This document shows positions 46,405-54,830 of a DNA stretch of 64,000 bases, in pieces; positions within the stretch are counted from its first letter, which is position 1, and each line of letters begins with the position of its first letter. The stretch comes from Desulfovibrionaceae bacterium (lineage in GTDB: Bacteria; Desulfobacterota; Desulfovibrionia; Desulfovibrionales; Desulfovibrionaceae). Location of the stretch: the NCBI GenBank assembly GCA_009782775.1, contig WRIL01000011.1, positions 1 through 64,000 of the forward strand, written 5' to 3'. A program made the translations under genes and the position numbers. The notes beneath the pieces were generated by a model that saw only the letters and a program-made list of their open reading frames with translations, was not told where the DNA came from and did no database searches.

Positions 46405-46749
46405 TCAGTTCCTTTCCAGCTTCAGCATCGCCCGCGCCATTTCAGCGGCAACATTGACGACAGCCTTTTGAGAATCCGGGGATAACGGGCGAAGCATATC
46501 CGCAAAGAATATGTCCGGTTCATCGCCGACTTTTTGCTCGAACAGGGCCGCGACCGGGCACCCCAAAGCCCCGGCCAGTTCCTGAAGCCGGTCAAATCTT
46601 GGGGCGATATGCCCTCTTTCCATGCGGGACAAGGATTGTTGGCCGATGCCGACCATCTCCGCCAGTTTTTCCTGGGTCAGGTTACGTCTTTTGCGCCGAA
46701 TAAAGATATTTTCGCCGACTATTTTCTCCAAGGCTTTGCTGCCAACCAT
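46405..46749 (-). CDS. XRE family HTH transcriptional regulator
   Basis: IFIRRKRRNLTQEKLAEMVGIGQQSLSRMERGHIAPRFDRLQELAGALG. Confidence 0.92.
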   Translation of the reverse strand: MVGSKALEKIVGENIFIRRKRRNLTQEKLAEMVGIGQQSLSRMERGHIAPRFDRLQELAGALGCPVAALFEQKVGDEPDIFFADMLRPLSPDSQKAVVNVAAEMARAMLKLERN

Positions 46750-46766: not shown

Positions 46767-46859
46767 ACGCTTTTTACGTATATTTTCAGTCAGGAACGGC
46801 TTTATCCAGGCCATAAAAAGCGTAAAATTATTGACATAAAAAGCGTAAAACTTTATACC
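46767..46859. promoter_or_regulatory. Putative operator repeats for the XRE regulator plus a + strand sigma70-like promoter
   Basis: Direct repeats CATAAAAAGCGTAAAA at 46812 and 46835 (23 bp apart) and inverted ACGCTTTTTACGTA at 46767-46780; TTGACA 46831-46836, 17 bp, TATACC 46854-46859. Confidence 0.6.
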
Positions 46860-47138: not shown

Positions 47139-47837
47139 ATGCGTTTGCCGGTCTTTTCCCGTATGTTCACGTTGCTGTGCGTTTTTCTGTTTTGCGCCGG
47201 AGTAGGCCTCGCGCAGGCCGCCTCGCCGGAGGAAGCCGCCCAGGAAGGCGCGGCCATGAAGGCGGAAGTGGACGCCCAGGTGCAGGCCTTGCTGAATTCG
47301 CCCGCCGGGGTATTCGACATCGAATACGAAGACGGCCAGCTTATGCGCCTCAAAATAAAGGGCGAATCCGAGGTGGCCACCTCCCTCCAGGGAGCGCGGG
47401 GAGATCGCCAGGCGCGTGAAAAGGCCGAGCGCTCCGCCAAGGCCTCCTTCTCCCAATTTTTGAACGAACAGGTCACGGTGGTCAGCTCCGACACCGAAGG
47501 TTTTTTGATCCAGGAAAAGGACGGCAAGGAAAGCGCCGAATACCTGAACGCCAGCCAGAGAACCATGGCCAGCCTCTCGAACAGCTTCCAGCGCGGATTG
47601 ATCACCCTTTTTGACCACGTGGAAGGCGAAGGGGCCAACCGCAAGGCCGTGGTCGTGCTCGGCTGGTCCAAGAAGCTGGTGGACGCCTCGGCCGGCGCCC
47701 AAAGCACCATGAACCAGAGCCGCGCGAACGAAAGCAACGCGGCGGCTGGCCAGCAGGCGGCCCCGGCGGCCGGGGGCGCCGGAACCCAGCCGAATACCCA
47801 GACCCAGACGCGCACCGGCAACCTGAACAAGTTTTAA
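47139..47837 (+). CDS. Exported protein of unknown function (exported cluster gene A)
   Basis: Signal peptide MFTLLCVFLFCAGVGLAQAA; LPP20-like segment; Q/A-rich low-complexity C-terminus. Confidence 0.7.
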   Translation: MRLPVFSRMFTLLCVFLFCAGVGLAQAASPEEAAQEGAAMKAEVDAQVQALLNSPAGVFDIEYEDGQLMRLKIKGESEVATSLQGARGDRQAREKAERSAKASFSQFLNEQVTVVSSDTEGFLIQEKDGKESAEYLNASQRTMASLSNSFQRGLITLFDHVEGEGANRKAVVVLGWSKKLVDASAGAQSTMNQSRANESNAAAGQQAAPAAGGAGTQPNTQTQTRTGNLNKF

Positions 47838-47848
47838 AGGAGATTCGC

Positions 47849-49054
47849 ATGAAACGGCATATACTTTTAGCCTTGTGCCTGATTTGCGCGCTCTGTCTCC
47901 CCTTGGCGGCAAAGGCCGCCGATGACGAACGCCAGGTGGTGGTCACCGGCGTGGGCATGAATGAAGAGGACGCCAAGCGGCAGGCTTACCGCAACGCCGT
48001 GCAGAGCGTCGTCGGGGCCATGGTCGTGGCCGAAACCCTGGTGGAAAACGACGCCCTGGTGCGCGACAAGGTGCTTTCGCACAGTGACGGCTACATCACC
48101 AAAACCGAACAGGTGGGGCAGACCGTTTCCCTCTCCGGCGGGCTGGTGGAGGTGACCATGAAGGTCACGGTGAAAAGCCAGCAGCTCAAGGACAAGCTTA
48201 AGGCGGAAAACATCAGCGTGATCGGCATGGACGGCGAAAGCCTCTTCACCAGGGCCGCCACCCAGACCGAACAGACCAAGGACGCCGCCGCCATTGTGGC
48301 CGAGGCTCTCAAGAATAATCTCCCCGCGAGCCTGATCAGTTCGGCCGCGAACATCGGCCAGGCCGAGGTCAAGGAATCCGGCGGCACGGCCACCGTCAAG
48401 GTGCCAATCTCCGTGTCCGTGAACATGGACGCCTACCGCAAGTTCACCGGCGACCTGAAAAAGACGCTGACGGACCTGGGCTATAAGGGCCAGACCGTCA
48501 GTTTCGGTATTGCTTTCGGGCAGTATGATTTTGACGAAATAACTGTCTATGACAATGCCGGCTGGAGAAACTTGAACCTATGGGCAAGCCCGGTATGCGT
48601 CATCGCCATTTGTGAAATGTATTCCCTGGAGTCCAAGCAAAGCCGCTGGACCTTTTTCAAGGTGCCCAAAAATGTGCTTGAACCCTTCCTGCCTTTGCAT
48701 ACGTATGAGCCCAACTATGTGGAAATCAAGACCGACCTCTATGACGGCGGACAAAACCTGATCACCAGCCAGAATGTCCGGCTTACCACAAACGAAAAAG
48801 ATGGCGATAACCGGTATAAAACCGATATCTTCAGCTCGAAAATCTGGACGGGCAACGATGACGGTTACGGCCTGGCGATTATATCGCCGGTGCTGAGATC
48901 GAAGTTGTATCCCAACACGAATAACCTGCCCATAGGCAACAAGGGCTATGCCCCTGGAAAACTGGAGGCCACCTTTGTGCTGGACGCCGAAGAACTGAAG
49001 GCGGCCAAGTCCATCCAGACCAGCGCGCAGAATGTCCTGGCTCCGGCCAATTAA
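47849..49054 (+). CDS. Exported protein with LPP20/FlgT-N-like domain (exported cluster gene B)
   Basis: Signal MKRHILLALCLICALCLPLAAKA; VVVTGVGMNEEDAKRQAYRNAVQSVVGAMVVAETLVENDALVRDKVLSHSDGYITKTE. Confidence 0.72.
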   Translation: MKRHILLALCLICALCLPLAAKAADDERQVVVTGVGMNEEDAKRQAYRNAVQSVVGAMVVAETLVENDALVRDKVLSHSDGYITKTEQVGQTVSLSGGLVEVTMKVTVKSQQLKDKLKAENISVIGMDGESLFTRAATQTEQTKDAAAIVAEALKNNLPASLISSAANIGQAEVKESGGTATVKVPISVSVNMDAYRKFTGDLKKTLTDLGYKGQTVSFGIAFGQYDFDEITVYDNAGWRNLNLWASPVCVIAICEMYSLESKQSRWTFFKVPKNVLEPFLPLHTYEPNYVEIKTDLYDGGQNLITSQNVRLTTNEKDGDNRYKTDIFSSKIWTGNDDGYGLAIISPVLRSKLYPNTNNLPIGNKGYAPGKLEATFVLDAEELKAAKSIQTSAQNVLAPAN

Positions 49055-49064
49055 TAACAAACTG

Positions 49065-49086
49065 TTTGGGGGCGAAAGCCCCCAAA
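49065..49086 (+). other. Intercistronic GNRA-loop hairpin
   Basis: TTTGGGGGC-GAAA-GCCCCCAAA: 9-bp perfect stem with GAAA tetraloop and no following T tract, between cluster genes B and C. Confidence 0.7.
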
Positions 49087-49105
49087 AAAATATGCATCAG
49101 GAAAT

Positions 49106-50428
49106 ATGCTTATGCCCAAAATTATACCTCTCCCGGTATTCCTCTTCTGGCTAGGGCTTTTCTTTTTTTGCGCCGTTTCCGCCACTGTCTCCGCCGCCCC
49201 GCCGGACTGGCTGATGCAGGAAATAAAAGACCCGGCCAAGCTGGAAACTCCGGGGGTGTACCCGCTCTCGCAAAACCGCCTGCTGGCGGTGGGGGCCGGG
49301 CGCGTCACCACCCAATTGCGCGAGGATCGGGCCTTGCGCCTGGCCGGCCTGCTGGCTGAAAACGACGCCAAGGCGCACCTGACCAGGCATCTTTTCAGCG
49401 ATGCCTTGCGCAAGGAGCCGCAACGCCGTTTCAGCGTGAATATCTCCGGCGGCCAGCTGGTCTCCCAGACGCGCGCCGGTGACAAGGCGTTTGTGGCTAT
49501 CCTGGCCGAGGCCCAAGCCGTCAGCCTGGCGCCGCTTTCACCCCTGGCCGACTGTTATGACGTGCGGGTGGCCCCCCTGGTGGAGGAGCTTCTGGATCAA
49601 AACCCGATGCTGGCCGACGGCGGCGGCGGAATATTCCCGCAAGAACAGGGATGGGTGGCGCTGGGCGTGGGTTTTGCCGCCCTGGACTCGAACACGGATC
49701 GCGAAGCGCGGATCATCGCCGTGGGGAATGCGCGCAAGGCCTTGAGTGAAGCGATCTTCGGGCTTTCCATCAGTAAACAAGAGCAATATGAGGAGATTAC
49801 GGCAGAAGGGCCGGGCGGCAACCTGCTGCGCGAATGGGCCAAGACCTCCACCAAGGAGACCGTGCAGGGACTTTTGCAGGGCGCTGAACAGGCCGGCGAA
49901 TGGAAGACGGATGACGAGCACCTGGGGGTAGCCGTGCTGGTGGGCAGGCCCCCGATAGTCCTTGCGGGCGGCGAGACCGTGAATACGGACAAGCTGCCGG
50001 GCTTCAGCCTGGAAGAAGAATGGCGGGAGGCCTTTTTGCAACGTCCCTGGATGATTGACGGCGGGGCCGGACTCCATGTACATAAGGGAATATCCTATCT
50101 CCTGGTGGTGGAAGGCGCTCCCCTGAAAGGTGACCCGCTGGCGGACAGAACGCAAACGCCGTTGCTCATCGATGTGAAAGGCAGAAACGCCGCCGCGAAA
50201 TATCTTTCCGGGGTCAATTCGGACAGCCTGACCGTGGAAACCGAGGAACGGAGCCTGACCGTGCAGGGGACTGATGAGAAAGAAACGCTGCGGGATTCGT
50301 TGCGCAAGTTGACCAAGGAAAGCGTTTTGGGAGTGGTGCAGGGGATGCGCAAGGTCGGTTCCTGGCAGAGCGAGGACCGCAGAATTCTGCGCCAGGCGTA
50401 TATCATCCCGTTGCCCGGCTCACGCTGA
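49106..50428 (+). CDS. Exported protein with duplicated LPP20-like module (exported cluster gene C)
   Basis: Signal PVFLFWLGLFFFCAVSATVSA; internal duplication TKETVQGLLQGAEQAGEWKTDD / TKESVLGVVQGMRKVGSWQSED. Confidence 0.72.
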   Translation: MLMPKIIPLPVFLFWLGLFFFCAVSATVSAAPPDWLMQEIKDPAKLETPGVYPLSQNRLLAVGAGRVTTQLREDRALRLAGLLAENDAKAHLTRHLFSDALRKEPQRRFSVNISGGQLVSQTRAGDKAFVAILAEAQAVSLAPLSPLADCYDVRVAPLVEELLDQNPMLADGGGGIFPQEQGWVALGVGFAALDSNTDREARIIAVGNARKALSEAIFGLSISKQEQYEEITAEGPGGNLLREWAKTSTKETVQGLLQGAEQAGEWKTDDEHLGVAVLVGRPPIVLAGGETVNTDKLPGFSLEEEWREAFLQRPWMIDGGAGLHVHKGISYLLVVEGAPLKGDPLADRTQTPLLIDVKGRNAAAKYLSGVNSDSLTVETEERSLTVQGTDEKETLRDSLRKLTKESVLGVVQGMRKVGSWQSEDRRILRQAYIIPLPGSR

Positions 50429-50455
50429 GGTAAAGCACAAGGAGGCGGTTTATCC

Positions 50456-51538
50456 ATGAAAAAACGGCAAGACGCGGCAGCACTTTGTACGCGAATCACC
50501 CCGGCTCTGTTTGTAATGCTCGCGCTATGCGCCCCCGGCTGTTTTCAGATCGCGGAACGGCAAGATTCCGGCCAGAGCTATTACTACAACCAGTACGACG
50601 ATGATTATTACCGCAGGGAAGCCGAGCGCGGACAATGGCTTTATGAGCAGGAACGCGCCCGGCGCCTGGAAAACGAACGCCGGGCCAGCCAGGCGGAACG
50701 GATTCGCCTGGAACAGGAACGCCTGAACTGGGAGTGGCGGCAGAAACAGGTTCTCGAACAGCAACGCCTGGAATTGGAACGCTACCGGCAGGAAGCGGCG
50801 CGGGAACAACAGCGCTATGACGCGGAACGCGCCCGACGCTTGGAAAGCGAACGCCGGGCCAGCCAGGCGGAACGGATTCGCCTGGAACAGGAGCGCCTGG
50901 CCTGGGAACGGCACGAACAGCAAAAGCGCTACGACGTGGAACAAGCCCGGCGCATGAAAGCCGAAAACCAGACCCAGGATCAGACGGAGCGAAACCGCCT
51001 GGCGCAGGAACGCCTGGCCTGGGAACAACAACAACAGCGGCAGCGCGATAGACAACAACGCGAGCAGCAGCAACAGCGCCAGCAGGCTCCCCAGCAGGTT
51101 GACCGTCCTGCTCCAGCACCCGCATCCACGCCCGCACAGCGCGAACAGCAGCAACGTGAACAGCAGCAACGTCAACAGCAACAGCGTGAGCAACAGCGTG
51201 AGCAACAGCAACGCCAGCAGGCTCCCCAGCAGATTGACCGTCCCGCTCCAGCACCCGCATCCACGCCCGCGCAGCGCGAACAGCAGCAACGTGAACAGCA
51301 GCAGCGCGAACAGCAGCAACGTCAACAGCAACAGCGTGAGCAACAGCAACGCCAGCAGGCTCCCCAGCAGATTGACCGTCCCGCTGCGCCCGCACCGGCG
51401 GCCAAACCCAGCGCTCCTGCACAGCAAACCGGCCGTATCGGCGCCACGGACAGTAAACCGGCTACGAAAGGGAGCGGCAACAGCCAGGATGACGACAACC
51501 AGAGAAATTCCAGCAACAGGGGCAACAACAGGCAGTGA
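50456..51538 (+). CDS. Exported/lipoprotein-like Glu/Arg/Gln-rich coiled-coil repeat protein (exported cluster gene D)
   Basis: Signal ALFVMLALCAPGC; ERARRLE(N/S)ERRASQAERIRLEQERL repeats, then Q-rich tandem repeats. Confidence 0.75.
   Translation: MKKRQDAAALCTRITPALFVMLALCAPGCFQIAERQDSGQSYYYNQYDDDYYRREAERGQWLYEQERARRLENERRASQAERIRLEQERLNWEWRQKQVLEQQRLELERYRQEAAREQQRYDAERARRLESERRASQAERIRLEQERLAWERHEQQKRYDVEQARRMKAENQTQDQTERNRLAQERLAWEQQQQRQRDRQQREQQQQRQQAPQQVDRPAPAPASTPAQREQQQREQQQRQQQQREQQREQQQRQQAPQQIDRPAPAPASTPAQREQQQREQQQREQQQRQQQQREQQQRQQAPQQIDRPAAPAPAAKPSAPAQQTGRIGATDSKPATKGSGNSQDDDNQRNSSNRGNNRQ
51080..51420 (+). repeat. In-frame tandem repeats inside cluster gene D
   Basis: CAGCAGGCTCCCCAGCAG(G/A)TTGACCGTCC units begin at 51080, 51215 and 51353 (periods 135 and 138 bp), separated by CAG/CAA-rich DNA. 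Confidence 0.88.
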
Positions 51539-54081: not shown

Positions 54082-54168
54082 GCCGTGGTGGTGGAATTGG
54101 TAGACACACTAGCTTGAGGGGCTAGCGTTCGCAAGGACATGGGAGTTCGAGTCTCCCCCACGGCACCA
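54082..54168 (+). tRNA. tRNA-Leu (anticodon GAG)
   Basis: GCCGTGGTGG...CTAGC-TTGAGGG-GCTAG anticodon arm, long variable arm, GTTCGAGTC T-loop, CCCACGGCACCA 3' end with encoded CCA. Confidence 0.95.
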
Positions 54169-54183
54169 GGGAAGAATTTCAGA

Positions 54184-54262
54184 AAGTCTCATAAGGTCAC
54201 ATAAGCCTTGTGAGACTTTGATTTTATGAAAAGGCGTCCTCTCATATAGTCTCATAAGGTCA
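54184..54262. repeat. Direct and inverted repeats downstream of tRNA-Leu (putative integrase arm sites / att region)
   Basis: AGTCTCATAAGGTCA at 54185-54199 and 54248-54262, plus inverted CCTTGTGAGACTT near 54207-54219. Confidence 0.6.
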
Positions 54263-54341
54263 TTTGACATACCCCGGTTTCAGGGGTAACTCTCTGGGAT
54301 AGATTGATTTTTTCTGCTACCCCGCCCGAGGAGTTACCCCG

Positions 54342-54830
54342 ATGTCAGCAAGCCTTACAGACGCACGAATCAGGAACATGCGTTCCTCGGAAAAATCCAA
54401 GAAATTTTTTGACGGTGAAGGTCTTTTTTTACAACTTACCCCTGCCGGGGGGAAATGGTGGCGTTTTCGCTATTGGTTTCAAGGGAAAGAAAAATTGCTG
54501 TCCCTTGGAACTTACCCCGGCATATCTCTGAAAATGGCGCGGCAACGGCGCGATGCGGCGCGGGAACTGATTGCCCAAGGCTTAGACCCGAGCAAACAAA
54601 GGCAAGCAGCCAAGGACGAAGCCGCCGCCCTTGCCAAAGAAGAGGCTCTGACCTTCAAAACGGTTGCGGCTGAATGGCTGGAAGTCAGAAAAGATACCTA
54701 TGCCGCTTCAAATATCAAAAAAAAGGACTGGCTTATCGGCCTGTTGTGCGCACATTTGGGCAATACGCCTATTGCAAAAATTGCCCCCGCCGACATTTTA
54801 GCCGCGATCCGGCCTGTTGAGGCACCATGA
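54342..54830 (+). pseudogene. Truncated P4-type tyrosine integrase (Arm and core-binding N-terminus only)
   Basis: LTDARIRNMRSSEKSKKFFDGEGLFLQLTPAGGKWWRFRYWFQGKEKLLSLGTYPGISLKMARQRRDAARELIAQGLDPS; ends at ILAAIRPVEAP with no catalytic domain. Confidence 0.9.

Follow-up and report, generated by a model that had tools for sequence, protein, structure and literature searches.

A linked exported-protein operon in Desulfovibrionaceae as a candidate SHS2-class periplasmic scaffold

RESULTS

Four exported-protein genes lie downstream of a putative XRE-controlled promoter

We analyzed a 64,000-nucleotide stretch of contig WRIL01000011.1 (here called the window) from the genome (GCA_009782775.1) of a Desulfovibrionaceae bacterium, a sulfate reducer of gut type. 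The interval from argB to a ThiF-family gene carries, on the plus strand, gene A (47139..47837; 232 aa), gene B (47849..49054; 401 aa), gene C (49106..50428; 440 aa), and gene D (50456..51538; 360 aa), separated by gaps of 11 nt (A-B), 51 nt (B-C), and 27 nt (C-D). The co-directional and closely spaced arrangement described in the initial annotation was thus confirmed. A hydrophobic N-terminal h-region was found in each of the four proteins, in line with the signal peptides that had been proposed for all of them, and the scan of all four revealed no further strong transmembrane-like stretch beyond this N-terminal segment. Judged by eye, A, B, and C resemble Sec/SPI substrates with cleavage sites AQA-A, AKA-A, and VSA-A, respectively, and inspection of these three sequences revealed no lipobox. 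Searches of A-D against Pfam, NCBIfam, and PHROGs assigned no family, with none of the four proteins reaching a curated domain cutoff, and nothing was found when the region was compared with Rfam.

The gap between B and C contains a hairpin (49065-49086, plus strand) with a perfect 9-bp stem and a GAAA loop but no U tail in the plus sense. This hairpin is possibly an mRNA stability or processing element; being very stable, it could set the ratio of the B and C products. Farther downstream in the window (54082-54830), a tRNA-Leu gene precedes a fragment that bears integrase N-terminal domains. This is likely a mobile-element attachment site that lies beside A-D and does not include them.

Upstream of A, an XRE-family (HTH_3) regulator is encoded divergently (46405..46749, minus strand). 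Two direct repeats of CATAAAAAGCGTAAAA (46812..46850, plus strand) are spaced 23 nt start to start, and an inverted copy, ACGCTTTTTACGT, is located at 46767-46779 between the XRE gene and A. Furthermore, a sigma-70-like promoter directed at A (46831..46859, plus strand; TTGACA-17-TATACC, 10/12 match) overlaps the repeats. The operator claimed previously at this place was recovered. The second CATAAAAAGCGTAAAA copy sits inside the promoter spacer, which is the usual arrangement for a repressor site. From the sequence, the XRE-family protein likely binds the CATAAAAAGCGTAAAA/ACGCTTTTTACGT repeats, and as a repressor it could gate the A-B-C promoter in this genome. In the region upstream of A, the best sigma-54 candidates were no better than those in shuffled sequences, and no good sigma-28 site was detected.

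A, B, and C are linked in three genomes

A profile search with A gave matches in 3 of 288 Desulfovibrionaceae genomes, and a search with C identified the same three. Full-length B was also confined to these genomes, which are the window's genome, the same-genus MAG TD116_bin81, and Desulfovibrio cuneatus DSM 11391. All three carriers have the genes in the order A-B-C, separated by short gaps. Under independent distribution of A and C, the chance of their sharing the same 3 of 288 genomes would be approximately 1 in 4 million, a figure that ignores the fact that two of the carriers are congeneric. When B was used to scan about 85,000 species genomes, only TD116_bin81 and D. cuneatus DSM 11391 were recovered; a search with C in a 395-genome sample of the phylum matched the window's own genome alone, and a single-sequence B query against genome contigs gave no match. 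With only three A-B-C genomes known, conservation is thinly sampled.

The neighborhoods of the three loci are wholly different. In place of the argB and ThiF-family flanks of the window's genome, TD116_bin81 has a transglycosylase gene just upstream, plus DedA-like and Fic genes, and in D. cuneatus genes for an S41 protease, a TIR-Sel1 protein, an FtsX-type ABC transporter, and a formylglycine-type (SUMF) protein are located nearby. Moreover, the argB loci of same-genus relatives contain no A-B-C. This combination of constant gene order, differing surroundings, and empty argB loci is in keeping with a unit that is moved in one piece. The exported genes might instead be adjacent by chance and form no functional unit, as the small number of carriers and the lack of conservation of D could suggest. 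However, A and C were found independently in the same three genomes, beside B and in the same order, within different surroundings; chance adjacency is already disfavored, and we consider it very improbable.

D. cuneatus is the genome with two extra copies of B (L021, 11755-14427; L022, 440-1606), one of which adjoins a TIR-Sel1 gene and the other genes for DHH-family proteins. The linkage of A-B-C contrasts with the scattered occurrence of B's distant relatives on their own. No A-B-C relatives were found in plasmids, phages, or viral contigs. One phage hit, MT835698, was rejected: it lies within a 1,605-aa ORF of an unverified, unannotated record, which looks like a bacterial TamB-type sequence. 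Three BFVD proteins of uncultured tailed phages (A0A6J5P175, A0A6J7WUI0, and A0A6J5LYS9) resemble the model of B over most of its length, with Foldseek E values of 1e-7 to 1e-11 but TM scores of 0.3-0.4 and 11-14% identity.

Gene D behaves differently. Its product is rich in Gln (24%), Arg (16%), and Glu (11%), contains a Gly/Pro-free stretch at residues 60-211, and has a weak lipobox (ALCAPGC); the gene includes a 135-nt tandem repeat. These features agree with the earlier description of D as a Glu/Arg/Gln-rich repeat protein with a weak lipobox. D has no counterpart at the A-B-C loci of TD116_bin81 and D. cuneatus and therefore lies outside the conserved block, as a local addition. A coiled-coil lipoprotein encoded upstream of A in D. 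cuneatus was considered as an equivalent of D and rejected (E=0.12, low-complexity matches only). Hence, of the set of four genes originally proposed, the neighborhood search kept A-B-C together, with linked homologs and not scattered ones, and removed D.

B carries an SHS2-type domain

Although direct Pfam searches with B left FlgT_N and LPP20 below detection, its relatives placed it clearly. FlgT_N (PF16548) was matched by 20 of the 28 members of the B family alignment (best E value, 2.8e-13), and by hhalign the N-terminal part of the close B family aligned to distant FlgT_N relatives with 99.4% probability. Comparison of B with the LPP20 set gave 95-96%, with 0/189 decoys scoring as high. 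In addition, a profile of B and its relatives identified Campylobacter FlgP (9hmf, E=1.1e-5) among PDB sequences. The D. cuneatus B protein matched LPP20 (PF02169) at positions 7-94 of 97 with 14.7 bits, short of the Pfam cutoff of 25.9 bits.

Structure prediction pointed in the same direction. In the AF2 model of B, the helix and core strands of the N-domain reach a pLDDT of ~90, and Foldseek comparison of this model with the PDB retrieved dodecins (probability up to 1.00), TIP-alpha, and FlgP (9hmf_A), with weak E values of 0.03-0.2. B carries the stretch VVAETLVENDALVRDKVLSHSDGYI, which appears to correspond to an insert that follows the SHS2 helix and precedes the second strand; the profile and fold matches to FlgP include this insert region, of which residues 60-67 were modeled at low confidence. 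We conclude that the ~100 residues that follow the signal peptide (~27-120) almost certainly form a domain of SHS2 type, in the class of FlgT_N, FlgP, and LPP20. The LPP20/FlgT-N-like domain noted for B in the initial annotation is thereby strongly confirmed.

The remainder of B (~126-401) is family specific: for the last ~275 residues, relatives could be detected in the close family only. FlgT_M and FlgT_C were not matched in B, and its C-terminal half scored 0.2% against the FlgT_N relatives. No CsgG, LpoB, or PelC-like domain was matched in A-D.

The distant relatives of B suggest two further readings of the locus. Their genes adjoin those for CsgG-, TPR-, AsmA-, and LPP20-type exported proteins, and some of the relatives themselves bear LpoB- or CsgG-like domains; together with the transglycosylase gene in TD116_bin81 (G002), this would suit a role of A-B-C in modulating peptidoglycan or outer-membrane homeostasis without a ring, like the LpoB/CsgG/TPR lipoprotein sets. 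However, no relation of the C-terminal half of B to LpoB/CsgG-like domains was detected (0.2%), and the neighboring genes differ among the three loci, so that we regard such a role as improbable. In distant B relatives, a middle domain is weakly similar to PelC. This domain and the transporter, S41 protease, SUMF, and TIR-Sel1 genes near the D. cuneatus locus could indicate that A-B-C belongs to an apparatus for secretion or polymer export, or to a conflict-related surface system. Yet by profile comparison the PelC-like part was not detected in B, and the D. cuneatus neighbors recur at neither of the other loci; this possibility is thus quite remote.

C and A appear to be built from related units

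C apparently consists of tandem LPP20/FlgP-like units at residues ~52-145, 178-290, and 310-440. Units 178-290 and 310-440 were recognized as an internal repeat (88.6%, P=2.6e-6; 0/189 decoys as high), and unit 2 (178-290) aligned to the LPP20 set with 56-81% probability in hhalign, again with 0/189 decoys as high. A search of the PDB with the C profile returned six weak hits in total, of which three were FlgP-type entries, all on unit 2. For unit 1 (52-145), the same strand-helix-strands order was predicted in a low-confidence model. The structure model of C as a whole was too poor to be relied on (pLDDT 42.6), and a fold search with it gave no match. Thus, by decoy-controlled comparison, C appears to hold at least two copies of an LPP20/FlgP-like unit, on evidence weaker than that for B, and it is probably built on the SHS2/LPP20-FlgP fold.

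A is conserved at residues ~40-185. Its helix segment matched C unit 1 by profile comparison (55-67% probability; 0/189 decoys as high), but no match between A and C was obtained by BLASTP. The relatedness of segments in A and C, which had been pointed out before, is therefore visible to profile comparison and not to BLASTP. Direct comparison of A with the LPP20 and FlgT_N sets detected no link, so that A is connected to them through C alone. On balance, A is slightly more likely than not to be built on the same fold, with confidence declining from B to C to A.

DISCUSSION

The gene products resemble parts of known systems. Like FlgT of Vibrio, an H-ring protein of the sodium-driven flagellar motor, B appears to have an exported N-domain of SHS2 fold and FlgT_N type in which an insertion follows the helix. 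In contrast to FlgT, B has no detected FlgT_M or FlgT_C, the locus is not flagellar, and A and C accompany B. In the Campylobacter basal disc, FlgP, an outer-membrane-anchored lipoprotein that forms concentric rings, is matched by the B profile, with weak matches of C unit 2 to FlgP entries, and FlgQ is a tandem of units, as C appears to be. However, unlike FlgP, A, B, and C have no lipobox, C probably has three units, and no basal-disc genes are nearby. The LPP20 family (PF02169; e.g., Helicobacter pylori Lpp20) appears to have its fold class in common with B and shows profile similarity to B and to C unit 2, but no member of A-D exceeds the Pfam cutoff, and A-C are not lipoproteins, unlike Lpp20.

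Could A-B-C therefore be a flagellar-motor accessory, such as an extra periplasmic disc or a stator scaffold, encoded apart from the main flagellar genes? FlgT_N and FlgP are the closest to B, and the flagellum marker FlgI is present in all three carrier genomes. However, FlgI also occurs in most relatives (54 of 59), and A-B-C is missing from almost all of these, so that flagella do not predict the module. Moreover, no flagellar genes were recognized near any of the three loci. We consider a flagellar role unlikely and conclude that A-B-C probably does not have one.

Instead, we tentatively propose, with not quite an even chance of being right, that A-B-C is a linked exported-protein operon of the SHS2 class, the products of which assemble in the periplasm, close to the outer membrane, into a ring or scaffold. 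Such an operon would be small and horizontally exchanged, and its three products would be soluble SHS2-fold proteins that reach the periplasm via Sec. B would be the ring former, combining its single SHS2 domain and the apparent insertion between the helix and strand 2 with a private C-terminal half. C, as a two- or three-unit tandem protein, could, in the manner of FlgQ, serve as a linker or cap made of several units, and A, probably a single-unit protein, could be a partner. We infer that their oligomers would form the ring or scaffold between the peptidoglycan and the outer membrane. Since A-C have no lipoboxes, anchoring would need another protein; in the window's genome, the strain-specific, helical, lipoprotein-like D may tether the assembly.

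The SHS2 fold does not imply a ring: dodecin, for one, does not form an envelope ring, and none is known for H. pylori Lpp20. A correlation has been described in the FlgP/FlgT class between the forming of rings and an insert that follows the SHS2 helix and precedes the second strand; FlgQ, in turn, resembles a two-FlgP repeat (PMC12222027). The most far-reaching reading, which we hold to be unlikely, is that A-B-C builds a non-flagellar multiprotein SHS2 ring or disc in the periplasm, as a stand-alone mobile cousin of the basal-disc and H-ring proteins. If A-B-C is linked, mobile, and non-flagellar, it offers a simple place to test whether this fold forms envelope rings outside the motor, and one of the carriers, D. 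cuneatus DSM 11391, can be cultured.

The initial annotation also suggested an undescribed system that might build an envelope structure. For A-B-C this suggestion is supported, and no description of such a set was found in the open-access literature, the coverage of which is incomplete; "undescribed" has to be qualified, since the fold class of the building blocks is known already. Furthermore, since the genus contains other, unrelated LPP20/FlgT/CsgG-type clusters of exported proteins and distant B relatives occur in exported clusters, A-B-C is a divergent case of a recurring exported-protein arrangement and not a wholly new kind. The clusters of FlgT_N proteins with TPR, CsgG, or DUF6340 lipoproteins in other Desulfovibrionales and Thermodesulfobacteriota likewise comprise several exported proteins, including one with a B-like N-domain, but their partner genes differ and the B-like protein has another C-terminal half.

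Two genomes of the same genus without A-B-C contain larger co-directional exported clusters with FlgT_M/CsgG, LPP20, PEGA, and SUMF-type domains (L109, G001:C67:364-10839; L110, G003:C41, 6576-13753). These LPP20-type clusters were considered as orthologs of A, B, and C and rejected, as the comparison shows no orthology. Two further loci (L028 and L035, in G013 and G057) are conserved exported clusters with FlgT_N-like, LPP20-like, and TPR-type proteins. At L028, one TPR-type protein has an SLH domain and an AsmA/YhdP-like protein is present. The B-like protein of the L028/L035 clusters recurs in many species of genus g8.
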